Virus record (IMG/VR): IMGVR_UViG_3300033571_010619
Location: 1-27,357 of that record
DNA from: a virus
Direction: 5' to 3' (one strand)
Length of the DNA: 27,357 nt
Every line of letters starts with the position of its first letter. Positions within the stretch are counted from its first letter, which is position 1. The position numbers were made by a program, and so were the translations under genes. Below are positions 5,055-27,128 of the stretch, piece by piece. A model generated the notes under the pieces. That model had not been told where the DNA came from. It did no database searches and saw only the letters and a program-made list of their open reading frames with translations.

Positions 5055-5987
5055 CTAAATCAACCGTCCAGTATATGGGTTATTCACCCCACTAAATTGT
5101 CGAGAAGACGGAGACATGGCTTGCCCACCAAACCTTCCGCCCATCGTGGGTGACTGCCCAAAAAATGGTGAGTTAATAATCGGGGGTTGCCCGAAATATT
5201 GATTATTAAGTGGGTTCTGTTGTATACCCCGTGCATACAAAGACTCAGGGGTTTGCCCCATCTGTTTAAGTTTTTTATTCTCGAAACGCGATAGCTGGGG
5301 AGCCTTAAATGTTGGCGTAGAAGACGGAACAACCCCCATACCATACACCAACCCGTTATCATCAACCCTAGCGGCAGTTGTCACATCTGATGGTGCTGTT
5401 GGTGTTGCTGATGGTGGAGCACTATTCGCGGCAAGAATTTTTCTATAAGCACTTTGAATAGCTCCTTTTCTGCCCCTACCCCCGCGGGAGCTAAAATTTA
5501 TACTGGCTGCTGGTGTACCTGCCGTAGGTTGTCCTTGATTGTTGAGATAATTTTGATACTGAGAAGAACCGGAGTATACTCCGGCAGTCCCTCCAATAAA
5601 CATACCACCCCCGACCCCGCCCCCGCCTCCGCCCCCGCCCCGGCTGCGGACGCTGCCGCCGACGCCAGCAGGACTAGCTACCCCTTCAATTCTAGAAGCT
5701 ATGTTGCGTTGTCTTATACCTTCTGCGACTTCTTTATCAGCCAGATAGCCTCGGTAAATACCCACCGCTTTAGAGTAATCCCCCGATTTCGCAAGTTCTC
5801 TGTACGTATTATAGTATGGGTCATTTAGATTCCCCATAAGTCTGCCCTTTTCAAGTTCTTGCCGACCCGTTCTTTTGAGGGCTTCTGGAGTATAATAGTT
5901 TTTAATATGACTAACATCCGCCTCATACTGAGCACGTTGAGTGCCAGTCATACCGTCGGGAGCTCCTTTATGTCCTGAATAACCCAT
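5055..5987 (-). CDS. Gly-rich hypothetical virion protein
   Basis: The product has 310 residues. The first 110 or so are charged and probably helical. They are followed by a poly-glycine stretch (SRGGGGGGGGVGGG, about residues 115-130), a Ser/Thr/Pro-rich linker, and a C-terminal region rich in Asn, Gln, Phe, Pro and Gly with repeated FFGQ/YFGQ motifs. The composition suggests a partly disordered structural or internal virion protein. No family was recognised. It sits in the late minus-strand cluster, 28 bp after the upstream gene. The leader before the ATG (AACACACTAAGATT) has no Shine-Dalgarno. Confidence 0.75.
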   Translation of the reverse strand: MGYSGHKGAPDGMTGTQRAQYEADVSHIKNYYTPEALKRTGRQELEKGRLMGNLNDPYYNTYRELAKSGDYSKAVGIYRGYLADKEVAEGIRQRNIASRIEGVASPAGVGGSVRSRGGGGGGGGVGGGMFIGGTAGVYSGSSQYQNYLNNQGQPTAGTPAASINFSSRGGRGRKGAIQSAYRKILAANSAPPSATPTAPSDVTTAARVDDNGLVYGMGVVPSSTPTFKAPQLSRFENKKLKQMGQTPESLYARGIQQNPLNNQYFGQPPIINSPFFGQSPTMGGRFGGQAMSPSSRQFSGVNNPYTGRLI

Positions 5988-6015: not shown

Positions 6016-7227
6016 TTATTGTCGTCCACCAAAACCATATAGGTTTGTGCCTTCTGGTGCGCCTCCTTCAAGAGCAATGCGTCTTTTTTCCGCACGGTCG
6101 CGTTGCATTTTAAAGTAATCAAGTGGGCTATCGACTCCAAGTTGTCGTGCAAGAGCTTCCTCGTAGCGCATAGCCGCAGCTTCGGGTGAGATGCTCCTAT
6201 CTCGTTCGCCTTCGTAGGTTCTTCTGTTAACGAGTCTATTTAGGCGAGTGTGGATCCGGTGAGCAGGGGCAATGGGTCGCCCCTTACCAGAAGAAAAGCC
6301 AAGGGGGACTCCACGGGATTTTTCGGTCTGCGTCTGGTAGTATTCATCAAGTCCACTACCCTTGCCTTCAAGACCTACTCTATTAGTAATCTCACCCCGT
6401 CTGGCAAGTTCTTCTTCTTGCCTAGCTATAAATCTATCAAGATCATACCCAACTCCAGCATTAATAGCGTCTTCCTTGGCTGCACTGATAACATTAAAAT
6501 CACCACTTCGGATACCCGCCTTCAAACGGTTAGCAACCTCTTGTCGGGCAGTTAACTGACCTTGGGTGGGCCTTGCTAGCTCACGATCCATGAACGAATC
6601 AAAGGCTGTATCAGACACCCCAGCACTTTTAGCCTCGGCTTTAAGCCCTGCGATCATCTCATCTTTATCACGCCCATCTTCTGCACCTAAAGCTGAACGA
6701 AGATTGCGTGCAATATCTTGACGCGCCCTGATTTGATCAGGAGTAGTGGTAGCTGCGGGTGTTTCTGGCTTTACTGATCGGGTTTGTGGTTCGACGGACG
6801 GGGATGGGGAAGGCGGTGCTTCAAGGACACCTGTTTGGGTTTCCCCCTTAGCGGCAGCATCCCTATCGCGTTTAGCTTTCTCAGCCGCAGCTTTCTCAGC
6901 CGCAGCTTTCTCAGCCGCAGCTTTCTCAGCGGCAGCTTTCTCAGCGGCAGCTTTTTCTTCAGCTTTGATGCGGTCTTCTACAGCTTTTGCAAACTCCTTC
7001 TCTTCACGCTCTTCCGCGTTAGTCGGATAACTAGATCCTTCCGTCTCAAGTTTTTTTGCGTTACGCTCCTCTTCAAGACGCATTCGTCTAGCTTCTACAG
7101 AATCATTCCAGTTACCCGCTACGGTGTTTGTAGGAGTGCCTAGAGTGTCCCTCTGAATCGAAGTGCCGTATCCGGCTCCGGAAGATCTACCAGAACTAAA
7201 AGAAGTTCCAAATGCGGTCGTTGCCAT
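6016..7227 (-). CDS. Helical virion protein with EKAAA repeats and an internal duplication
   Basis: This is a 403-residue protein if it starts at the ATG at 7227, two bases after the upstream stop (TAA CC ATG). An alternative start at 7254 would overlap the upstream gene by 25 bases and is less likely. Residues 45-125 are a charged helix containing an EKAAA array. Residues 131-165 are Pro/Ser/Thr-rich. Residues 168-219 and 228-276 are two diverged copies of one module (both run from ARQ to ELAR, with an intervening AGV). The C-terminus is basic. No enzymatic motif was found. Its location among candidate ejection proteins suggests an internal virion or scaffold-like role, which is inference. 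Confidence 0.8.
   Translation of the reverse strand: MATTAFGTSFSSGRSSGAGYGTSIQRDTLGTPTNTVAGNWNDSVEARRMRLEEERNAKKLETEGSSYPTNAEEREEKEFAKAVEDRIKAEEKAAAEKAAAEKAAAEKAAAEKAAAEKAKRDRDAAAKGETQTGVLEAPPSPSPSVEPQTRSVKPETPAATTTPDQIRARQDIARNLRSALGAEDGRDKDEMIAGLKAEAKSAGVSDTAFDSFMDRELARPTQGQLTARQEVANRLKAGIRSGDFNVISAAKEDAINAGVGYDLDRFIARQEEELARRGEITNRVGLEGKGSGLDEYYQTQTEKSRGVPLGFSSGKGRPIAPAHRIHTRLNRLVNRRTYEGERDRSISPEAAAMRYEEALARQLGVDSPLDYFKMQRDRAEKRRIALEGGAPEGTNLYGFGGRQ
6874..6948. repeat. 15-bp tandem repeat, 5 copies, encoding AAEKA
   Basis: Three copies of agctttctcagccgc are followed by two copies of agctttctcagcggc. On the minus strand they encode five AAEKA pentapeptides in the helical protein at 6016-7227. 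The unit length equals that of the PPKVA array at the left edge, but the sequence is unrelated. Confidence 0.95.
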
Positions 7228-13762: not shown

Positions 13763-15082
13763 GTGAAGCAATTATTCGACAAACAAGTGGAGGCAAAAGA
13801 CTTCTTCCGGACGAAACACCTGTCCAGAAAATCGACCCTCGACACCTCCTCGACCGGAACGGGTAAGACCGTGGTAGCCGCGAGACTCGCCATGGAGTGG
13901 GTGCAGGAAGGTAACCACGTTGCCGTCCTTTGCCCAAAGGCAGTGATCCCTTCATGGGAGCGTGAGTTGGCTGAGTGCAACGTGACACCGCTTTTCGTGA
14001 CCAACTACGAGAAAATCCGGGGTGGGAAAACCCCTTGGATGTCCAAGCAAGGGGCGAAGCTAATGACTTGGAAGCTGCCCAAGAACACCCTTGTCCTGCT
14101 TGACGAAGTCCATAAGTGCAAGGGTCCATACACGCAGAACGCGCAGTTGTTTATCTCGCTGCTCCAGCAAGGGTATGTGACCCACTCCATGTCTGCTACG
14201 GCAGCGGAGAATCCAGCAGAGATGCGTGGGTTGGGTTACGCGATGCAACTGCACAACCTCAACAAATCGGAGAACGGATTACCTAACTTTTTCTCATGGA
14301 TGTTACGCAATGGTTGTGTGAGGAACGCATGGGGTCAGTGGGACTTCGTCGCCAAAAGATACCTCTCCAACATCCGCACGGAGCTTTACGAGGCAGACGG
14401 ACACTCCGCACATAAACTCAGCATTTCGGACTTCCCCGATTCGTTCCGTGGAAACATGGTCCACTACGAGCCGATCCAGTTCTCCAACCTGTCCAAGATC
14501 CGCAAGGCATTCAGTGACCTTGGGCTTACGCCCCAAATCATGGAGGACTACATCGAGAACGGGACCGTTGAGGACAAGGACAACATCATGCTCGTAAACA
14601 TCCTACGCGCACGGCAGTTAGCGGAGTCGCTCAAGGTCCATGACATCGCAGAGATGGCGGAGGATCTTTTGCTGGAAGGAAAGTCCGTGGTGATCTTTGT
14701 CAATTTCTCCGACACGGCAGATGCCCTTGCCCAACTCTTGGGGTGCGGGAAGATCGTGGGCAACCAGACAGCCGACGACAGGCAGAACATCATCGACCGA
14801 TTCCAGAGGGACGAGGATAGAGTCGTAGTGGTCAATATCGCCGCAGGAGGAACTGGTATCTCGCTCCACGATCTGCGGGGTGAATACCCACGGGTGTCGT
14901 TGATCTCGCCCAGCTACTCCGCGAAAAACCATGTGCAGTGCCTTGGGCGAATCCACCGCAATGGCGCGAAGTCCGATGCGATCCAGAAGGTCTTGTTCGC
15001 CTCAGACTCCATCGAGGAGGTGGTCATCAAGGCACTCCAGCGGAAGATCGAAAATTTAACAACCCTGCACGGGGTTGCATAA
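13763..15082 (+). CDS. SF2 (SNF2/DEAD-like) DNA helicase or translocase
   Basis: A 439-residue protein with two RecA-like domains. Motif I is STGTGKT (residues 30-36), motif II is DEVH (114-117), motif III is SAT (144-146), and motif VI is QCLGRIHR (392-399). The GGTGISLHDL stretch before motif VI is typical of SNF2-type helicases of phages. It would remodel replication or recombination intermediates. It starts with GTG, as no in-frame ATG lies nearer the conserved N-terminus, and no Shine-Dalgarno is visible. It lies between the resolvase and a run of small genes, all on the plus strand. Confidence 0.92.
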   Translation: MKQLFDKQVEAKDFFRTKHLSRKSTLDTSSTGTGKTVVAARLAMEWVQEGNHVAVLCPKAVIPSWERELAECNVTPLFVTNYEKIRGGKTPWMSKQGAKLMTWKLPKNTLVLLDEVHKCKGPYTQNAQLFISLLQQGYVTHSMSATAAENPAEMRGLGYAMQLHNLNKSENGLPNFFSWMLRNGCVRNAWGQWDFVAKRYLSNIRTELYEADGHSAHKLSISDFPDSFRGNMVHYEPIQFSNLSKIRKAFSDLGLTPQIMEDYIENGTVEDKDNIMLVNILRARQLAESLKVHDIAEMAEDLLLEGKSVVIFVNFSDTADALAQLLGCGKIVGNQTADDRQNIIDRFQRDEDRVVVVNIAAGGTGISLHDLRGEYPRVSLISPSYSAKNHVQCLGRIHRNGAKSDAIQKVLFASDSIEEVVIKALQRKIENLTTLHGVA

Positions 15083-15098
15083 CAAAGATACTAGAACC

Positions 15099-15308
15099 AT
15101 GAATAACTGGCAGAAACAAAAGATTGACCAAGGCATGTGCCTACAGTGCGGACGCTACCCTTTCGGTGGCGAAGGCGGAACCAAGAACCGTTGTGCTAGC
15201 TGCGCTGAGAAATCTCGTCAATACAACCGCAACCGATACAGAGCATCCCGTGGTATCCCCTTTGATAAACCCACCCCCACCGAACGAAACGCACAAGAGA
15301 AACCATGA
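15099..15308 (+). CDS. Small zinc-ribbon-like protein
   Basis: This 69-residue protein has two CxxC pairs (CLQCGRYPF, then NRCASC) separated by about 14 residues, followed by a very basic stretch (KSRQYNRNRYRASRG). This is the layout of small HNH-like or zinc-ribbon nucleic-acid-binding proteins of phages, but no HNH catalytic histidines were seen. The ATG at 15099 is preferred to a TTG eight codons upstream. Its stop overlaps the next start (ATGA). Confidence 0.75.
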   Translation: MNNWQKQKIDQGMCLQCGRYPFGGEGGTKNRCASCAEKSRQYNRNRYRASRGIPFDKPTPTERNAQEKP

Positions 15309-15382
15309 CCGACTTGGCACTCCTTGTCCTCTTCGCGATCCTCAATGGAGTCGCTATGATCAACATTATTTTTAAACCATGA
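15305..15382 (+). CDS. 25-residue single-pass membrane peptide
   Basis: This micro-gene overlaps the upstream stop and the downstream start by ATGA at both ends, so both its limits are fixed by neighbours. The peptide is almost entirely hydrophobic (LALLVLFAILNGVAMINIIF) after MTD and ends KP, which is enough for one membrane helix. The exact stop-start packing argues that it is translated. The function is unknown. Confidence 0.6.
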   Translation: MTDLALLVLFAILNGVAMINIIFKP

Positions 15383-15783
15383 AAGAACAAAACGAACTAC
15401 TAGAAGCCGCAGAAAAACTGTTGGGAATCCTAAGCACCATCGATGCTATCACTTTCGGGGATCTCACCATCTCTGAATGGAATGTGATTGAGGAGGCTCG
15501 ACAAATCGTTGAGAAACACCGCCCAAAGCCTAAGAGGATTGAGGGCTGGATCAACCTTTATGCTCCTGATGAAGAATACATGGGTTTTATTTATCTTACT
15601 GAGGAGGACGCTAAGACCCATTGCAGCGATTACACGTTGAGGCAGGTCCACATCCGCGAAGTCCTTCCGGTCGAGTGGGATCCTTGGACCGTCGAAACCT
15701 TGTTAGATTTTCCGCATTTAAAAGCCATCATTGATGCTCACAACGCAGAGATGGAAAGGGTAATCGCCATAATCGGCGAATAA
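15379..15783 (+). CDS. Hypothetical protein, 134 residues
   Basis: The first 50 residues are an acidic, helical region (ELLEAAEKLLGILSTIDAITFGD, then EARQIVEKH). The second half is beta-containing (GWINLYAPDEEYMGFIYLTEEDAKTHC), followed by a C-terminal helix. No family was recognised. The start overlaps the 25-residue membrane peptide by ATGA, supporting the ATG at 15379. It ends just before a small hairpin (15786-15806). Confidence 0.75.
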   Translation: MKEQNELLEAAEKLLGILSTIDAITFGDLTISEWNVIEEARQIVEKHRPKPKRIEGWINLYAPDEEYMGFIYLTEEDAKTHCSDYTLRQVHIREVLPVEWDPWTVETLLDFPHLKAIIDAHNAEMERVIAIIGE

Positions 15784-15785
15784 AA

Positions 15786-15806
15786 CGAGTAATTTCAGAT
15801 TACTCG
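15786..15806 (+). other. Hairpin between small early genes
   Basis: cgagtaat and attactcg form a perfect 8-bp stem with a 5-base loop, three bases after a stop codon and 16 bases before the next ATG. No T-run follows, so a transcript-processing or stabilising structure is more likely than a terminator. Confidence 0.45.
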
Positions 15807-15822
15807 CAGAGCATGACGAATT

Positions 15823-16110
15823 ATGAGTGGAGGATATATCGGCTATCATCAGCACCGCTTAACGGATATCGCATTTGAAATTGAGGAATTGATCGCGTTG
15901 AACGACGACAAGACTCTAGACCGATTCGGAGAGAGGATTGGGAACGGATTCCCGCAGGAGATCACCGACAAGTTTGAAGAAACGGTATACACCTTGCGGA
16001 AGGTCGCGGAGATGGTTAAGCGAATTGACTACCTACTCAGCGGCGACGACGGCGAGGAATCGTTCCTGCGTGAGTGGCAGGAAAAAGTGGAACAACGCAC
16101 CAACGACTAA
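15823..16110 (+). CDS. Hypothetical acidic helical protein, 95 residues
   Basis: An acidic protein, mostly helical (LTDIAFEIEELIALNDDKTLD, then FEETVYTLRKVAEMVKRIDYLL), ending in EKVEQRTND. No domain was recognised. It is followed two bases after its stop by the zincin-like gene. The leader lacks a Shine-Dalgarno. Confidence 0.72.
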   Translation: MSGGYIGYHQHRLTDIAFEIEELIALNDDKTLDRFGERIGNGFPQEITDKFEETVYTLRKVAEMVKRIDYLLSGDDGEESFLREWQEKVEQRTND

Positions 16111-16112
16111 TC

Positions 16113-16469
16113 ATGAAAACCGCTGACCAGATATTTATCGACGCTTTCAAAAAATCTCAAGAGGCTCTCGGGCTAATCCATTTCAGAACCTCATTTGAGT
16201 TGGATAATTCGATGGTCGCTTACGCAAGCATCCACCGGAACTCGGTAGACTGCACTGCCCACGTTAAGTTTAACGCACAGATGATGGAGCGCGATAAGGT
16301 CTTGGTCTCTACGGCTGTCCATGAGGCAGCACACCTCCTCGTCCAAGACCTACGTTGGGCGCAGCAGTGCGCCCCCGACCACATAGCGGATACCGAAGAC
16401 GAGAGGATCGCGAGTCGCCTTGAACCGCTACTCCTCCGCGCCCTCTTTCCAAACCAGAAGACTAAATGA
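16113..16469 (+). CDS. Zincin-like putative metallopeptidase
   Basis: With the ATG at 16113 the product has 118 residues. The motif VHEAAHLL is a HExxH zinc-binding helix, and the downstream DERIASRLEPLL supplies a Glu that could be the third ligand. This arrangement, a short protein with HExxH followed by an E/R-rich helix, occurs in a phage family annotated as putative metallopeptidases, whose substrates are unknown. An upstream ATG at 16074 would overlap the previous gene by 37 bases and is rejected. It overlaps an 8-codon frame by ATGA at its end. Confidence 0.8.
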   Translation: MKTADQIFIDAFKKSQEALGLIHFRTSFELDNSMVAYASIHRNSVDCTAHVKFNAQMMERDKVLVSTAVHEAAHLLVQDLRWAQQCAPDHIADTEDERIASRLEPLLLRALFPNQKTK

Positions 16470-16499
16470 CAGAACAAACCAAACAAGTATAAATAACAA

Positions 16500-16811
16500 A
16501 TGAACATCATCGATAACCGAAGAGAAGATAGCAACGCAGAGAGAATGGCTGAGTTTGAAAGAAAACCCTACATGACGATGCATGAGCTTTTCACACGCGC
16601 CTTCAACGCAGGGGTAGCCGCTCAGTCCGATCAACAAGAAGCGGAGAGACAAGACGCGATGGACAAGGCGCGGGAGCGATACAACGCGCAACGTGACACC
16701 GAACCTGTTGCGTTCATGGACGTTGCCCCCGGCAAAATGATCGCGAGTATCGCCTTTAAAATGACCCTTTCTTCAGAGAGGCTTTTTCCTAAACAAGAAA
16801 ACCCTCTCTAA
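16500..16811 (+). CDS. Hypothetical protein, 103 residues
   Basis: A charged, helical protein (MNIIDNRREDSNAERMAEFERKP start, Ala/Gln/Glu/Arg-rich middle) with a short C-terminal hydrophobic patch (GKMIASIAFKM). No family was recognised. The leader (tataaataacaa) is A/T-rich with no Shine-Dalgarno. It lies in the run of small early genes. Confidence 0.68.
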   Translation: MNIIDNRREDSNAERMAEFERKPYMTMHELFTRAFNAGVAAQSDQQEAERQDAMDKARERYNAQRDTEPVAFMDVAPGKMIASIAFKMTLSSERLFPKQENPL

Positions 16812-16833
16812 GAGGAAACTCATATTTTAAAGT

Positions 16834-17043
16834 ATGACAAGAGACCCAGAAATTGACGCTGACGCGATCCTCGCTACGATGAGCGAGAAGAAAATTGTCA
16901 ACCTCATCGTTGACATTGACTCCACCATCGGGGACATGAACTTCACCCAGCACCTTCTCAAAGAACTCATTAAGTCCCTTAGCGGAGACATGAGTAAAGA
17001 AGATGTGAAAGCTTTTGTGATGAAACTACTAAACGAAAAATGA
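16834..17043 (+). CDS. Hypothetical small helical protein, 69 residues
   Basis: An acidic helical protein (DADAILATMSEKKIVNLIVDID, then HLLKELIKSLSGDMSKEDVKAFVMKLLNEK). It overlaps the start of the nuclease N-terminal fragment by ATGA, so the two are probably translated together. The function is unknown. Confidence 0.72.
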   Translation: MTRDPEIDADAILATMSEKKIVNLIVDIDSTIGDMNFTQHLLKELIKSLSGDMSKEDVKAFVMKLLNEK

Positions 17044-17285
17044 AACCAGACCACGCAAACCGGGGACACGCTGAGTTCTCCCCAAGCTCACTGAAGTATG
17101 TCGCTGGATGCCCCGGCTACAAAGGACTGAGTGGCAGCAGTGCCGCCGCAGAAAAGGGAACACGCATCCACGAAGCTCTCGAAACCCGCGACCCATCTGC
17201 GCTGCACGATGAGGAAGAAGTCTCGATCTACGACAAGATCGTTGATATGGAAACCGCATTCCTTGAGACCTTTATCTCAGGATGA
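17040..17285 (+). CDS. N-terminal piece of a split RecB/Cas4-type PD-(D/E)XK nuclease
   Basis: An 81-residue product whose sequence matches the start of the phage RecB-family nuclease pattern: SPSSLKYVAGCP (a Ser-containing helix ending in C24-P25), then EKGTRIHEALE with the conserved motif His at H44. It stops right after a helix (DMETAFLETFISG), where an intact family member would run on into the catalytic core. That core is encoded separately at 17747-18613, in a different frame and after two other genes. C24 is at the place of the first cysteine of the AddB/Cas4-type iron-sulfur cluster; the other three are in the second piece. The ends overlap neighbours by ATGA on both sides. Whether the two chains assemble is unknown. 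Confidence 0.75.
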   Translation: MKPDHANRGHAEFSPSSLKYVAGCPGYKGLSGSSAAAEKGTRIHEALETRDPSALHDEEEVSIYDKIVDMETAFLETFISG

Positions 17286-17539
17286 AATCCCTTCGATACG
17301 GACAACGGGCAGACTTACGTGACCGAATCCTACTGTTGTTAAGCGATGGGAAGCAATGGCACATCCGGGACTTGACTGAAGCTCTCGCGTGGCCGAAGGC
17401 AACCAACATCTCAAAAGTTCTCAACGAGATAAAACAACATTTGGTAGTCACACGGGATCCCCGGCGACTCCTCAAGGAATCATCCAACAACTGCCGTAAA
17501 GGAACACTTTGGCAACTAAATACAAAAGACAATGACTGA
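17282..17539 (+). CDS. Winged-helix-like small protein inserted between the nuclease halves
   Basis: An 85-residue basic protein. LRDRILLLLSDGKQWHIRDL, then ATNISKVLNEIKQHL and a basic hairpin (VVTRDPRRLLKES), gives the helix-helix-helix-wing order of a winged-helix DNA-binding domain. It starts within the stop of the nuclease N-terminal piece (ATGA) and overlaps the next gene by 8 bp. It could be a regulator or part of a mobile insertion; neither is shown by the sequence. Confidence 0.65.
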   Translation: MKSLRYGQRADLRDRILLLLSDGKQWHIRDLTEALAWPKATNISKVLNEIKQHLVVTRDPRRLLKESSNNCRKGTLWQLNTKDND

Positions 17540-17750
17540 ATCACACACTGTCGGAGAATGGCTCGACAAGTCGCAGATGAAAGATATGAGGCTCCTCAAG
17601 GAGCATGAGCTTCTTTCCAAGTTCCCGGACGAAACCTTGACCATGCTGTATGAGGATTGGTGTCACCAAGAGCGGGGATGCCTTTGGGCTACCGCTAACC
17701 CCAAGAATGTCAGAGAATTTGTGAAGCATCTTAAACGAGAAAATCAATGA
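17532..17750 (+). CDS. Hypothetical 72-residue protein inserted between the nuclease halves
   Basis: A helical, acidic/basic mixed protein (GEWLDKSQMKDMRLLKEHELL, then FPDETLTMLYEDWCHQERGCLW), with no family recognised. It overlaps the upstream gene by 8 bp and the downstream nuclease core by ATGA, so all four genes from 17040 to 18613 form one translationally coupled string. Confidence 0.65.
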   Translation: MTESHTVGEWLDKSQMKDMRLLKEHELLSKFPDETLTMLYEDWCHQERGCLWATANPKNVREFVKHLKRENQ

Positions 17751-18613
17751 TAACAGAATACAACGAGATCCAATTGGAGATCCCCCTCAACTACGGTCTT
17801 AAGACCTACGGAACCTGCGACCGTCTTACGATCAAAGATAAGAAGGCACTCCTCGCTGATTATAAAACGGGGGTATCACAGATTGATCACCCCTCTGAGA
17901 ACTGGCAAGCGATGGCTTACACCATCGGGGTATTTGATAAGTTCAGTGACATTGAAAGCGTCACGTTCGTTTTCTACATCCCCTTCTACAACGACACCCC
18001 CAACCATACCTTCCACCGCAGTGAACTTGAGACCCTGCGGGAAAAGGTCAGCGTGGTAATCGCCCGTGCTGCCTATGTCCGCTCCAAGTGGACCTGCGGC
18101 ACACCGTCGTTGGATGAATTGAATCCGTCTCAGAACTGCCGCTTCTGCGCTTACGAGTCGAACTGCCCCGCGTTGGGAAGTCTCGTCCTTGGGGTCGCAG
18201 ATAAGTTGGGCGTGAACTTGCCTGATTCGCTCGACCCAGAAGGAGCAGACCCTGAGACGCTTGAGAACGTCTACGGAATCGCTAAGGTTGTGTCCAATTG
18301 GGCAGACACCTTCCGCTCCAAGGTGGTGGCTATGGCGAAGGACGGGCTTGAGTTCCCTACCTTGCGGCTGCGTTCCATGGGGTGTACGAAGCGTTGCGAG
18401 GACAACGAGAAGCTTGTAGAAGTAGCTATGAGTTATGGACTTACGGACATTGAAGTCCTTTCCGCAGCAACCTTCCCGTTGGGTAAGCTTACCAAGGCTA
18501 TTTCTGATAAAGCTCCGAAGGGCGAAAAGAGTGCGAAACAAAAAGAATTTCTTGACGATCTCGATTCACATGGGATCCTTGAGACCTCTGAGGAGCGGTT
18601 CACGCTCTCCTGA
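17747..18613 (+). CDS. Catalytic piece of a split RecB/Cas4-type PD-(D/E)XK nuclease
   Basis: This 288-residue product holds the core motifs of the RecB nuclease family: E11 in the first strand, YGTCDRL with D25, LLADYKTG with D38 and K40 (the D-x-K catalytic pair), and the Q54-x3-Y58 motif (NWQAMAYT). C131, C134 and C140 (CRFCAYESNC) are three of the four cysteines of an AddB/Cas4-type iron-sulfur staple. The first cysteine and the GxxxH motif are missing here and are found on the separate product at 17040-17285. The C-terminal half is helical and ends in a Lys-rich segment. It would process DNA ends in recombination or replication. It lies just upstream of a candidate ssDNA-binding gene. 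Confidence 0.85.
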   Translation: MITEYNEIQLEIPLNYGLKTYGTCDRLTIKDKKALLADYKTGVSQIDHPSENWQAMAYTIGVFDKFSDIESVTFVFYIPFYNDTPNHTFHRSELETLREKVSVVIARAAYVRSKWTCGTPSLDELNPSQNCRFCAYESNCPALGSLVLGVADKLGVNLPDSLDPEGADPETLENVYGIAKVVSNWADTFRSKVVAMAKDGLEFPTLRLRSMGCTKRCEDNEKLVEVAMSYGLTDIEVLSAATFPLGKLTKAISDKAPKGEKSAKQKEFLDDLDSHGILETSEERFTLS

Positions 18614-18658: not shown

Positions 18659-19279
18659 ATGAGTGAAATCGTAAAGACGCAACCAGCAAACAAGGGATTT
18701 CTCATCTCCGCAGATGACATTGATATCCCCCGCATCAACCTGATCCAGAAGACATCGAATATCGATGCTCCAGTTGGGTCCATCGTTCTGGACAAGATCC
18801 ACGTTCTCGCTGAGAAAGAGTCGGCGATCCCCGTCACGGTGATCAACCCTGTCAAGGGTTGGAAAGAAGACATCCCGTATGGCTCCGATGCCATGTGCCG
18901 GATGGCTTACAACGAAGCTGAAGCAGCGGTCCTCCGCGAAGAGTCGGACCACAAGGTCATCGAGTTCGCAGAGATCACGCTTCTGTTCCAGTCGCCTGAC
19001 GAAGATCCCGATCCCGCGACTTACCCGCTCCCGTTGGGTGGTAAGTTCTGCGCCCTCGGCAAGATCCATGTCCACAAGGATGCCTACCGCATGACCTACA
19101 AGGCACTCGCTACGTGGGCTGCTGCCAATAGCCCCCGCAGTATCTCGGAGGTTGAATGGGAGTTTAAATCCTCCCTCCTCCAGCGTGGACCCCACAGTTG
19201 GTTCGTCCCTTCTCTGAAGGTTACCTCCAGAGAAACCAACCCGCAGATCCTTGAGTTCCTCAACAAGTTTTCTGCATGA
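18659..19279 (+). CDS. Candidate ssDNA-binding protein (hypothetical)
   Basis: The product has 206 residues. Beta-type segments (GSIVLDKIHVLAEKESAIPVTVINP, then IEFAEITLLFQSP) alternate with Pro-rich loops, and the second half has a mixed helical/beta pattern with aromatic residues (HSWFVPSLKVTS). The sequence lacks an enzymatic motif and lies between the nuclease and DNA polymerase. That is where many phages carry the replication ssDNA-binding or recombination-mediator gene. The OB-fold assignment is inference; I did not recognise a specific family. The leader is A-rich with no Shine-Dalgarno, and the stop overlaps the next gene (ATGA). Confidence 0.7.
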   Translation: MSEIVKTQPANKGFLISADDIDIPRINLIQKTSNIDAPVGSIVLDKIHVLAEKESAIPVTVINPVKGWKEDIPYGSDAMCRMAYNEAEAAVLREESDHKVIEFAEITLLFQSPDEDPDPATYPLPLGGKFCALGKIHVHKDAYRMTYKALATWAAANSPRSISEVEWEFKSSLLQRGPHSWFVPSLKVTSRETNPQILEFLNKFSA

Positions 19280-19554: not shown

Positions 19555-21330
19555 ATGAGAATTTACGCAGTCGATTTTGAAACCTACTACGACAACGAGT
19601 GCAGTATTAAAACACTCGGGTGGAAAGGATACTTTAACCACTTCGCTTTCGATGCCTACCTTGTCACGGTCTACGCGAATGATGATCAAGGAGAGTTTTC
19701 CTACGTGGGATCTCCTAAAGAACTGGACTGGTCCATCTTGGACGGGAACATGGCTATCTCCCACAACGCAGCCTTCGATGAGTTGCTCTACCACGAAGGA
19801 CTGTTGAAAGGGTGGTGGAAGGGTCCGGAGTCTGTCGAATGGAACTGCACCGCTGATATGGCTTCGTTCCTTGGACTTCCCCGCGCACTTAAGAACGCTT
19901 CTAAAGAGGTGCTTGGCGTTGAGGTTTCCAAGGAAGTCCGGGACACCATGAAGGGGCAAAACTGGGACAGCATGACCCCAGAGTTCCAGAAGCAGGTGAG
20001 CGACTACGCCATCAAGGACAGTGTCCTCTGTCTTGATCTGTGGAATGCTGTGTCTGCACAATGGCCGGAAGTAGAGCGCAAGATCAGTCGCATCAACCGG
20101 ATGGTTCTCAGGAACGGTGTCCCGATGGACGTTAACGAACTTAAGACCCAGAAGGATTATTTGAAGGCTGAGTTGTTCAAAGTCGAACAGCAGGTTCCGT
20201 GGGCGGATGAATCCCCGATCCTTAGCCCGAAAGCATTCAACAATGCCTGTCGCGAAGTGGGTATCGAACCTCCGAAAAGCCTTGCGATGGATGACCCTGA
20301 CGCAGAGGAATGGATCCGCCGATACGGTAAAAAGTTCCTGTGGGTCGAAGCTGTCCGAAACTGGAGACGTATCAATGCACTCCAGAAGAAGCTGGAGTCC
20401 ATTGACCACTCCACCAATGCCTCCGGTCGCTGCTACATCGGACTGACCTACTTCGGAGCGCACACCGGACGCTTCTCCGGAAGTGGTGGGAACTTTAACA
20501 TCCAGAACCTTCCCCGCGCTGAGATGTTCGGAGTGAACCTCCGCTCCTTGATTACTGCTCCAGCCGGGAAGAGCTTGGTTGTGGTTGACTTGTCCCAGAT
20601 CGAAGTTCGCACCTTGGCGTGGTTGGCAGGAGATGAAGACCTGTTGAAGGAGATCGCACAGTCTGACGATATCTATGAGGTCTTCGCGATCCGATTCGGG
20701 ATGTGGTCGAAGGATCGTGGTTCTCTCCGGGCGGAAGATCCCAAGCTGCGCCACAAGGTCAAGACCATCGTCCTTGGCTGCGGGTATGGTGCGGGGGCGA
20801 AGAAGTTCTCAGAGATCTCCGATATGGATATGGTCGAGGCTTTTGAGGCAGTCCACCTGTATCGACGGGCCTTGCCAAAAGTCCCCAAACTCTGGGCGAA
20901 GTATGATTCTTGCCTATACTCTGCGTTTCAGATGATCAGTTCCGGCAGGAAGTGGGATCTTACCCTGCCATCCGGGCGATCCCTCAACTACTCCGGTATC
21001 TCCTTCGTGTCCCACAACGGAGGACGGCAGTGTGTTATCGACAAAATCATCGGTGGGAATAAACGCAAGACCCGCGTATGGGGTGGGGTCATCACGGAAA
21101 ACGCATCACAAGCCCTTGCGCGGGATATCTTCTGCCACCACATTGTCTCGCTCCATGAGGCGGGGTATAAGATCCTGTTCCATGTCCATGACGAAGTCGT
21201 CATCGAGTCCCCTTCTGAGGGTGCTGAAGAAACCTTGAAGGAGGTCGTAAAGATCATGTCCACCGCACCAGAGTGGATCGACTTGCCTCTTAGTGCCGAA
21301 GGTAAGATTTTGAAGCAATACGAAAAATGA
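19555..21330 (+). CDS. polA: Family A DNA polymerase with 3'-5' exonuclease, Leu at the 762 position
   Basis: This 591-residue replicative polymerase is shorter than bacterial Pol I and lacks a 5'-3' exonuclease domain, as usual for phages. The proofreading domain has DFE (D7, E9), SHNAAFD (D75) and YAIKD (Y151, D155). The polymerase domain has HTGRFSGSGGNFNIQNLPR, motif A DLSQIE (D345, E350), motif B RHKVKTIVLGCGYG (R399, K403, Y411) and motif C HDE (H545-E547). Aligned with E. coli motif B, L407 takes the place of Phe762. It follows a terminator by 22 bases with no visible promoter. It overlaps the primase-helicase by ATGA, so the two form a replication pair. Confidence 0.97.
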   Translation: MRIYAVDFETYYDNECSIKTLGWKGYFNHFAFDAYLVTVYANDDQGEFSYVGSPKELDWSILDGNMAISHNAAFDELLYHEGLLKGWWKGPESVEWNCTADMASFLGLPRALKNASKEVLGVEVSKEVRDTMKGQNWDSMTPEFQKQVSDYAIKDSVLCLDLWNAVSAQWPEVERKISRINRMVLRNGVPMDVNELKTQKDYLKAELFKVEQQVPWADESPILSPKAFNNACREVGIEPPKSLAMDDPDAEEWIRRYGKKFLWVEAVRNWRRINALQKKLESIDHSTNASGRCYIGLTYFGAHTGRFSGSGGNFNIQNLPRAEMFGVNLRSLITAPAGKSLVVVDLSQIEVRTLAWLAGDEDLLKEIAQSDDIYEVFAIRFGMWSKDRGSLRAEDPKLRHKVKTIVLGCGYGAGAKKFSEISDMDMVEAFEAVHLYRRALPKVPKLWAKYDSCLYSAFQMISSGRKWDLTLPSGRSLNYSGISFVSHNGGRQCVIDKIIGGNKRKTRVWGGVITENASQALARDIFCHHIVSLHEAGYKILFHVHDEVVIESPSEGAEETLKEVVKIMSTAPEWIDLPLSAEGKILKQYEK

Positions 21331-26126: not shown

Positions 26127-27128
26127 ATGAGAAAACTTTTGTTAAGGAACAACCTGAGCCTTGGGGATGTCGTCGTTTGTTCTGCGGCTATCCGTGATTT
26201 GCATAAAGCTCATCCGGGTAAGTTCCTAACTGGATATACGGGATCTTGTGCGCAAGTTTTTGACCACAACCCCTACATCGAACACGATCCGGAGGCAGAG
26301 GAAATTAATTTGGAGTATCCTGCAATCCATAAAAGCAATCAACGCCCCCGGCACTTCATCGAGGCTTACCATGAGTTCTTGTCAGATACGTTAGGGGTGG
26401 ATATCCCCATCACAGAGTTCAAAGGGGATATCCACCTGACTGATGATGAGAAGAAGTGGGTTAGCCAAGTGCATGAAATCGTAGGTTTCGATGCCCCTTT
26501 CTGGATCATCGTATCCGGCGGGAAGTTCGACTATACCTGCAAATGGTGGGGGCATCACCATTACCAAAAGGTGGTGGATGAACTGCGCGGGAAAGTCTTG
26601 TTCGTGCATGTGGGTGAAAAGGACCACCACCACCCCCAGCTTGACGGGGTGATCGATCTACGAGGTAAGACCGATGTCAGACAGTTGATCCGGTTGGTCC
26701 ACCACTCCCAAGGGATCGTGTGTCCTGTAACCAGCCTCATGCACCTTGCTGCGGCTGTCCCGGCAAAGGAAGGTAACCCTACGAACAGGGCTTGTATCGT
26801 CGTTGCAGGAGGCAGGGAACCCGTTGCGTGGGAGCATTATCCGTCTCACCAGTTCATGCACACTGTCGGAATGCTCCCCTGCTGCCAAACCGGAGGGTGC
26901 TGGAAGTCCCGCACCGTAGCGTTGAACGACGGCAGTGACAAAGATAATAGCCTGTGCGCGGCTCCTACCATATCCTCTGTTGGAACTCATACACCGAAAT
27001 GCATGGAAATGATCACCCCCGCGAGTGTGGTCACGGCAGTCTTCAAGTATCTGGTCGGCGGGTCTTATAAGGTCATAGACCCGGATAAATGGTCCCGTGT
27101 GGAGGCTCACCTTACAGCCCCGCTATAA
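26127..27128 (+). CDS. GT9-family glycosyltransferase (heptosyltransferase-like) with Cys cluster
   Basis: A 333-residue GT-B-fold enzyme. The start (NNLSLGDVVVCSAAIRDLHK) carries the GD motif (G13, D14) of ADP-heptose transferases. The donor half has SGGKFDYTCKWW, then GKTDVRQLIRLVHHSQGIVC and PVTSLMHLAAA (S203, H206). The C-terminal part holds C252, C253, C258, C277 and C292 (CCQTGGCW and KCMEMI), like the metal-binding cysteines of TibC-type protein O-heptosyltransferases. It may therefore glycosylate a protein rather than lipopolysaccharide; the donor sugar and target are inference. It is the only plus-strand gene among the late minus-strand genes at this end, and its stop abuts that of the Ser-rich gene. 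Confidence 0.85.
   Translation: MRKLLLRNNLSLGDVVVCSAAIRDLHKAHPGKFLTGYTGSCAQVFDHNPYIEHDPEAEEINLEYPAIHKSNQRPRHFIEAYHEFLSDTLGVDIPITEFKGDIHLTDDEKKWVSQVHEIVGFDAPFWIIVSGGKFDYTCKWWGHHHYQKVVDELRGKVLFVHVGEKDHHHPQLDGVIDLRGKTDVRQLIRLVHHSQGIVCPVTSLMHLAAAVPAKEGNPTNRACIVVAGGREPVAWEHYPSHQFMHTVGMLPCCQTGGCWKSRTVALNDGSDKDNSLCAAPTISSVGTHTPKCMEMITPASVVTAVFKYLVGGSYKVIDPDKWSRVEAHLTAPL

Follow-up and report, generated by a model that had tools for sequence, protein, structure and literature searches.

A RecB/Cas4-type phage nuclease gene divided in two around changing cargo genes: a proposed two-chain enzyme

The window, as we call the whole 27,357-nucleotide stretch of viral DNA analysed here, contains two genes whose products of 81 and 288 aa were confirmed to be the two halves of one RecB/Cas4-type (DUF2800, phrog_69) nuclease. 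In the absence of complex or activity data, we nevertheless hold it highly probable that they are the two chains of one such enzyme and that they reassemble non-covalently. The genes concerned, all on the same strand, are arranged as follows.

16834..17043, + strand: upstream 69-aa gene, outside the nuclease, ATGA-coupled to the N-terminal chain
17040..17285, + strand: N-terminal chain of the split RecB/Cas4-type nuclease, 81 aa, assigned by phrog_69 and alignment to intact relatives
17286..17746, + strand: gap (insert) between the nuclease halves, 461 bases, its counterpart in other split phages holding variable cargo
17282..17539, + strand: predicted winged-helix protein, 85 aa, assigned by AlphaFold2, Foldseek and homologues in split loci
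17532..17750, + strand: 72-aa protein, no function assigned; by alignments, present in split clades A and C and missing from B
17747..18613, + strand: C-terminal chain of the split nuclease, 288 aa, with the PD-(D/E)XK core, assigned by DUF2800, PDDEXK_1 and phrog_69

The 81-aa ORF (17040-17285) contains SPSSLKYVAGCP and GTRIHE (H44), and provides the metal-cluster Cys24 and the catalytic-motif His44 and Glu45. The 288-aa chain carries D25, D38, K40, Q54 and Y58 and has no N-terminal Cys/His motif. Read across the two chains, H44 of the small one followed by D25, D38-Y-K40, Q54 and Y58 of the large one gives the catalytic order His, D, D-x-K, Q-x3-Y. The large chain also has a three-cysteine end, C131-x2-C134-x5-C140, and the cysteine layout is one N-terminal (C24, small chain) plus three C-terminal (C131, C134 and C140, large chain). 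The upstream 69-aa gene terminates in an ATGA on the start of the 81-aa gene, and the junctions between the genes for 81, 85, 72 and 288 aa are, in this order, ATGA, an 8-nt overlap and ATGA. When re-checked on the window, the coordinates and motifs that a first-pass annotation had given for both ORFs all proved correct, and so did its description of overlapping stop-start junctions and of a 461-base gap with two small genes, which encode the 85-aa and 72-aa products.

In Pfam searches the 288-aa product matched DUF2800 (E 4.8e-19) and PDDEXK_1 (E 6e-8), and the 81-aa product reached DUF2800 at a sub-threshold E of 0.12; the phrog_69 exonuclease was matched by both (E 2.4e-5 for the 81 aa and E 3.9e-25 for the 288 aa). 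An identity as CRISPR Cas4 proper (TIGR00372) was rejected, the score being 15.8 bits against a curated cut-off of 65, and a profile search of solved structures returned no match at E 0.01. A viral scan with the 288-aa product returned 12 loci, four with the same four-gene order (L001-L004) and eight with one ORF of 372-386 aa (L005-L012), whose N-terminus aligned to the 81 aa and the rest to the 288 aa. The intact one-chain relative L005, for example, was 77% identical to the 81-aa product over its N-terminus and ~50% identical to the 288-aa product over the remainder. Larger scans gathered at least 85 distinct intact sequences, with single chains of ~370-386 aa. In the junction alignment the intact '...SSFANGETYKEYNEIQVDI' stands against the split '...ETFISG* / MITEYNEIQLEI'; the halves align end to end to intact relatives and no residue is missing at the break. 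One mark of a gene in pieces, namely one-chain homologues covering both ORFs end to end, is thus present. The first-pass annotation had read the two ORFs as pieces of one nuclease and proposed separate searches for one-chain relatives; these were found, they carry both pieces in a single frame and they support that reading. The two outcomes that it had named as fatal did not materialize, the 81-aa product being the N-terminal part of the nuclease family rather than an unrelated complete family, and no full-length 288-aa form with its own N-terminal Cys and His having been seen.

The break was mapped on the one-chain model of an intact relative, L044, and not on a two-chain model. This AlphaFold2 model (43-row alignment; pLDDT 83, pTM 0.65) has a helix at 60-77, a loop at 78-82 and a strand at 83-95, and by alignment the break maps into the loop, in agreement with the helix boundary proposed earlier from the sequence. 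Foldseek matched the model in the PDB to the ACE1/Cas4-family 9iac, AdnA, Cas4 SSO0001 (4ic1), MGME1, RecE and AddAB (E 3e-7 to 5e-4), with modest whole-chain TM-scores of 0.2-0.4. In Cas4 and AddB a cluster is held by one N-terminal and three C-terminal cysteines, and every cysteine mutant of Cas4 SSO0001 was insoluble (PMC3466216). By homology, the split would divide the cluster ligands 1 + 3 between the chains and separate the catalytic His from the D/DxK core, each on its own chain. A joining of the two chains by this presumed Fe-S or Zn cluster is an inference.

The split was found at the same place in the window and in at least 18 other IMG/VR contigs, 16 of those 18 loci being complete and two (L066 and L067) being cut off by the contig end. 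Clade A comprises the window and L001-L004, with a gap of 461 bp; clade B comprises the N-piece relatives L047, L066, L067, L074 and L077 together with L105-L108, of which L107 is a mixed case, with a gap of 701-3184 bp where complete; and clade C comprises L209, L210, L211, L213 and L214, with an additional 217-218-aa ORF ahead of the winged-helix gene. Chance, sequencing error and assembly error were excluded as the source of the split. In trees of the joined N and C sequences, a single branch set the split forms apart from the rest, within the intact forms, with UFboot/SH-aLRT values of 99/99 (A and B) and 100/100 (A, B and C), and path lengths between split sub-clades were ~1 substitution per site (0.98 to 1.35). 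These trees show a single old origin of the split. A search of genome contigs with the N piece gave matches on three contigs from MAGs, which bear the names Altibacter, Verrucomicrobiales and Blastopirellula and leave the host unclear.

Nei-Gojobori dN/dS values, restricted to pairs with usable dS given its saturation in distant pairs, were 0.06-0.14 for the N half and 0.04-0.14 for the C half, and in the gap genes 0.04-0.12 (winged helix) and 0.06-0.16 (72 aa). For the window genes the figures were ~0.09 (81 aa), 0.08-0.14 (288 aa) and 0.05-0.10 (85 aa). Residues C24, H44 and E45 of the small chain and D25, D38, K40, Q54, Y58, C131, C134 and C140 of the large chain were invariant in 54/54 intact and split sequences, and the ATGA coupling at the large-chain start was preserved in clades A and B. 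A second mark of genes in pieces, purifying selection on both parts with the active residues kept, is therefore met as well. Interruption by foreign DNA is usually fatal to a gene, and the pieces here lie in different frames, which would suit a nuclease broken by an insertion with both ORFs as its decaying remains. However, the same break is present in at least 19 phage records, window included, that form one old clade, with no further frameshifts, dN/dS of ~0.1 in both halves and all the catalytic residues retained. Selection and invariant active residues in both halves therefore exclude decay, and a pseudogene is hardly a tenable reading.

This selection demonstrates a need for both products but does not show binding between them. 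The large chain alone could have residual activity, and it might even be the full enzyme in the split clade, the 81-aa chain having acquired another role, such as inhibitor or regulator; the location of the core D/DxK motif on the large chain and the evolution of the small chain as a separate gene would be compatible with this. We consider such repurposing quite unlikely, since the small chain retains exactly the residues needed in the one-chain enzymes (C24, H44 and E45) and has diverged less than the large one (77% vs ~50% identity to L005), and the large chain lacks one cluster ligand and the catalytic His. The functional two-chain enzyme put forward in the first-pass annotation is thus strongly supported by the single old origin and purifying selection, but it lacks a biochemical demonstration.

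Across complete split loci the gap ranged from 461 to 3184 bp and held unrelated genes in different phages. The sole element common to all of them was the winged-helix gene, placed directly before the large chain in clade B and before the 72-aa gene in clades A and C. The AlphaFold2 model of the 85-aa product (H-E-H-H-E-E, pLDDT 76) matched mostly winged-helix proteins in the PDB with Foldseek, at weak E-values, and the winged-helix-like character suspected earlier is upheld at the level of prediction; the window protein was 36% identical to a clade B copy (E 3e-14). Neither this gene nor the 72-aa gene was found outside split loci among the matches listed in the IMG/VR scans or in the phage collection, and the winged helix had no match in the fetched intact loci. 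The 72-aa product gave a weak Pfam match to Phage_int_SAM_1 (E 0.014, below the cut-off). The suggestion in the first-pass annotation that the inserted proteins could regulate cleavage is a conjecture.

The composition of the gap also bears on whether a single chain is restored by a self-splicing intron, a split intein, ribosomal bypass or read-through. Precedents exist: group I introns and inteins frequently break up phage genes (PMC2988022), and split inteins have been described in 'fractured genes' (Dassa 2009, cited in PMC10448857). At this locus, however, the region to be crossed is full of overlapping ORFs and differs in length and genes from phage to phage; no Rfam family was detected in the window, nor in any of six split loci, a relaxed threshold on the window region yielding one chance match (E 8); no intein sequence was present in the 81-aa chain, whose last residues vary, or where the 288-aa chain begins; and the ATGA overlap supplies the large chain with an ATG of its own. 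Restoration of one chain is, in our view, highly improbable.

The gap of L077 (5262-8215) carried a phrog_15826 protein together with nucleoside-deoxyribosyltransferase-like, QueD-like and QueE-like proteins, the latter three being possibly part of a 7-deazaguanine DNA-modification set, and that of L105 carried a DUF6948 protein. The L077 and L074 records were 99.5% and 99.4% identical over the 8.3 and 3.8 kb flanking the gap, the alignment stopping where the N piece ends and resuming upstream of the winged-helix gene, so that, of the 12 kb common to these two phages, gene content differs at the nuclease break alone. Most likely, the break became a cargo site.

The N piece of the clade B phages L047, L077 and L074 runs into a palindromic element of ~55 nt. 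These imperfect palindromes, CGAAC...GTTCG, were located at L047:5233-5287, L077:5233-5285 and 6669-6723, and L074:5634-5688. The cargo of L077 is bordered by two of them, which differ in sequence and share a fold (DNA folding z about -3.0 and -4.9); the first copy in L074 folded no better than its shuffles. Strong copies were restricted to the gap in the records scanned, and the elements are possibly cassette recombination sites. The attC consensus is RYYYAAC/GTTRRRY; the letters adjoining AAC/GTT in the palindromes do not fit it, and an attC-like reading is left open.

A mobile element of the homing endonuclease type could have made the break or could maintain it, as mobE in Aeh1 nrdA. Both the logic and the gene order match those of known phage genes in pieces (PMC2988022), cargo turnover is fast, phages 99.5% identical over 12 kb differing only in the gap, and palindromic elements flank the cargo in three clade B phages. 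Against this, profile searches of the gap proteins tested revealed no homing endonuclease gene, whether by HNH, GIY-YIG or other endonuclease matches, the winged-helix protein has no nuclease motif, and no unsplit, vacant-site relative of the same clade was found. We regard this origin as doubtful, though by no means negligible; the mobile insertion suggested in the first-pass annotation finds support in the gain and loss of genes in the gap, but not in any mobility gene found there.

Two other clade B records deserve mention. A 30-bp exact direct repeat (L105:4682-4728 and 5394-5440) flanks the DUF6948 cassette of L105, which shows a Gly-rich/low-complexity repeat array with a 12-bp period; L106 has a single copy and no cassette. 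In L107:1-10316, the N piece and the next 218-aa ORF match clade C (the N-piece protein being 100% identical), and the following 7 kb have 100.000% DNA identity to clade B L106, so that L107 may be a recent recombinant joined within the gap, or else a chimera produced by assembly at the contig end. We set it aside as evidence for shuffling of the halves, since the foreign part lies at the contig end and a chimera cannot be excluded.

The role of the enzyme was approached through its neighbours in the window.

13763..15082, + strand: SF2 helicase (Helicase_C E 7e-11; phrog_62 E 1e-40)
18659..19279, + strand: 206-aa neighbour, presumed Gp2.5-like ssDNA-binding/annealing partner, by position only
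19555..21330, + strand: family A DNA polymerase (DNA_pol_A E 8e-31)

A duf2800-gp2.5-polA module is known in phages (PMC8093625), and the PolA gene is its third member in the window. The 206-aa protein is conserved beside both intact and split nucleases and was matched by no Pfam, PHROG or NCBIfam model; that it is the Gp2.5-like member is inferred from position only. In intact relatives the helicase lies directly before the nuclease gene (adjacency in L006). Judged by its family and these neighbours, the split nuclease is most likely a DNA-end-processing exonuclease for phage replication or recombination, its activity being inferred. Between helicase and nuclease, ~2 kb of small ORFs are found in clade A (window 15075-17043), the two genes being adjacent in intact relatives and in L107, and this interval is a second gene-gaining place in clade A. 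Elsewhere in the window, at 26127-27128, the phage carries a Glycosyltransferase family 9 (heptosyltransferase-like) gene (E 1.6e-10).

As an explanation, we propose that the ancestral gene encoded one chain of ~370 aa and was opened once, long ago, in the loop that links the third helix to the core's first strand, both parts remaining translated through a stop and a new start after it. From the small chain would come the N-terminal helices, one metal-cluster cysteine and the catalytic His, and from the large chain the three remaining cysteines and the metal-binding D/DxK core. Both chains would contribute to the active site and to an Fe-S (or Zn) cluster that, if it forms as it does in Cas4 and AddB, would hold them together. 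The assembled enzyme would then act as its intact relatives do, most likely by exonucleolytic trimming of DNA ends on behalf of the phage's helicase, ssDNA-binding and PolA module. The gap would have become a safe site for cargo, with the winged-helix gene staying ahead of the large chain; its product, whose role is inferred, may bind the chain pair, target DNA or regulate the operon. More tentatively, and as a minority possibility in our own estimate, the nuclease could be made of three parts, the small and large chains plus the winged helix as a DNA-targeting subunit, with a two-chain metal cluster and a break kept as a dedicated cargo site, cassettes (some palindrome-bordered, including the QueD/QueE set) being swapped between near-identical phages.

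A natural split RecB/Cas4 nuclease is now available to test, and the case shows that the interior of an enzyme can turn into a gene-exchange site. Annotation overlooks such enzymes, the 81-aa half falling below the Pfam and NCBIfam cut-offs. No description of a split DUF2800 nuclease was found in the literature, within a partial coverage. Compared with Cas4, AddB, RecB and the phage DUF2800 exonucleases, the fold, the D / DxK / Q-Y and His motifs and the 1 + 3 cysteines are alike; all the relatives seen are single polypeptides, whereas the window has two, between which the active site and the cluster ligands appear to be divided.

Other phage enzymes also occur in pieces. The mobE gene splits NrdA in Aeromonas phage Aeh1 (Friedrich 2007; reviewed in PMC2988022), and the T4 topoisomerase gp39/gp60 (mobA) and the DNA polymerase gp43A/43B of phages 25 and 44RR are further cases (PMC2988022). 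Aeh1 NrdA shares with the window pair a DNA-metabolism enzyme in two ORFs, an insertion in a critical region and stop-start coupling. The Aeh1 chains rebuild an active enzyme, as does the split gp43 of phage 25 (PMC2988022), whereas assembly of the window pair is inferred. T4 gp39/gp60 and gp43A/43B resemble the present case as two-chain forms of enzymes that are single-chain in relatives, and gp43A/B co-purify and are active (PMC2988022); they belong to other enzyme families, and cargo-gene turnover is not reported for them in the portion available. In 'fractured genes' with split inteins (Dassa 2009), genes likewise lie between the halves in environmental phage sequence, but the window break has no intein parts and protein ligation is therefore not expected. 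The known split phage enzymes (NrdA, gp39/60 and gp43) are mostly tied to homing endonucleases; the window-type split has lasted ~1 substitution per site with none found. In contrast to Aeh1 NrdA, the gap holds a winged-helix gene and variable cargo with no homing endonuclease detected, the split is old and extends over three diverged clades, and the ligands of one cluster would be divided between chains. What differs from the known cases is the enzyme, the putatively divided cluster ligands, the lack of a detected homing endonuclease, the age of the split and the turnover of its cargo.
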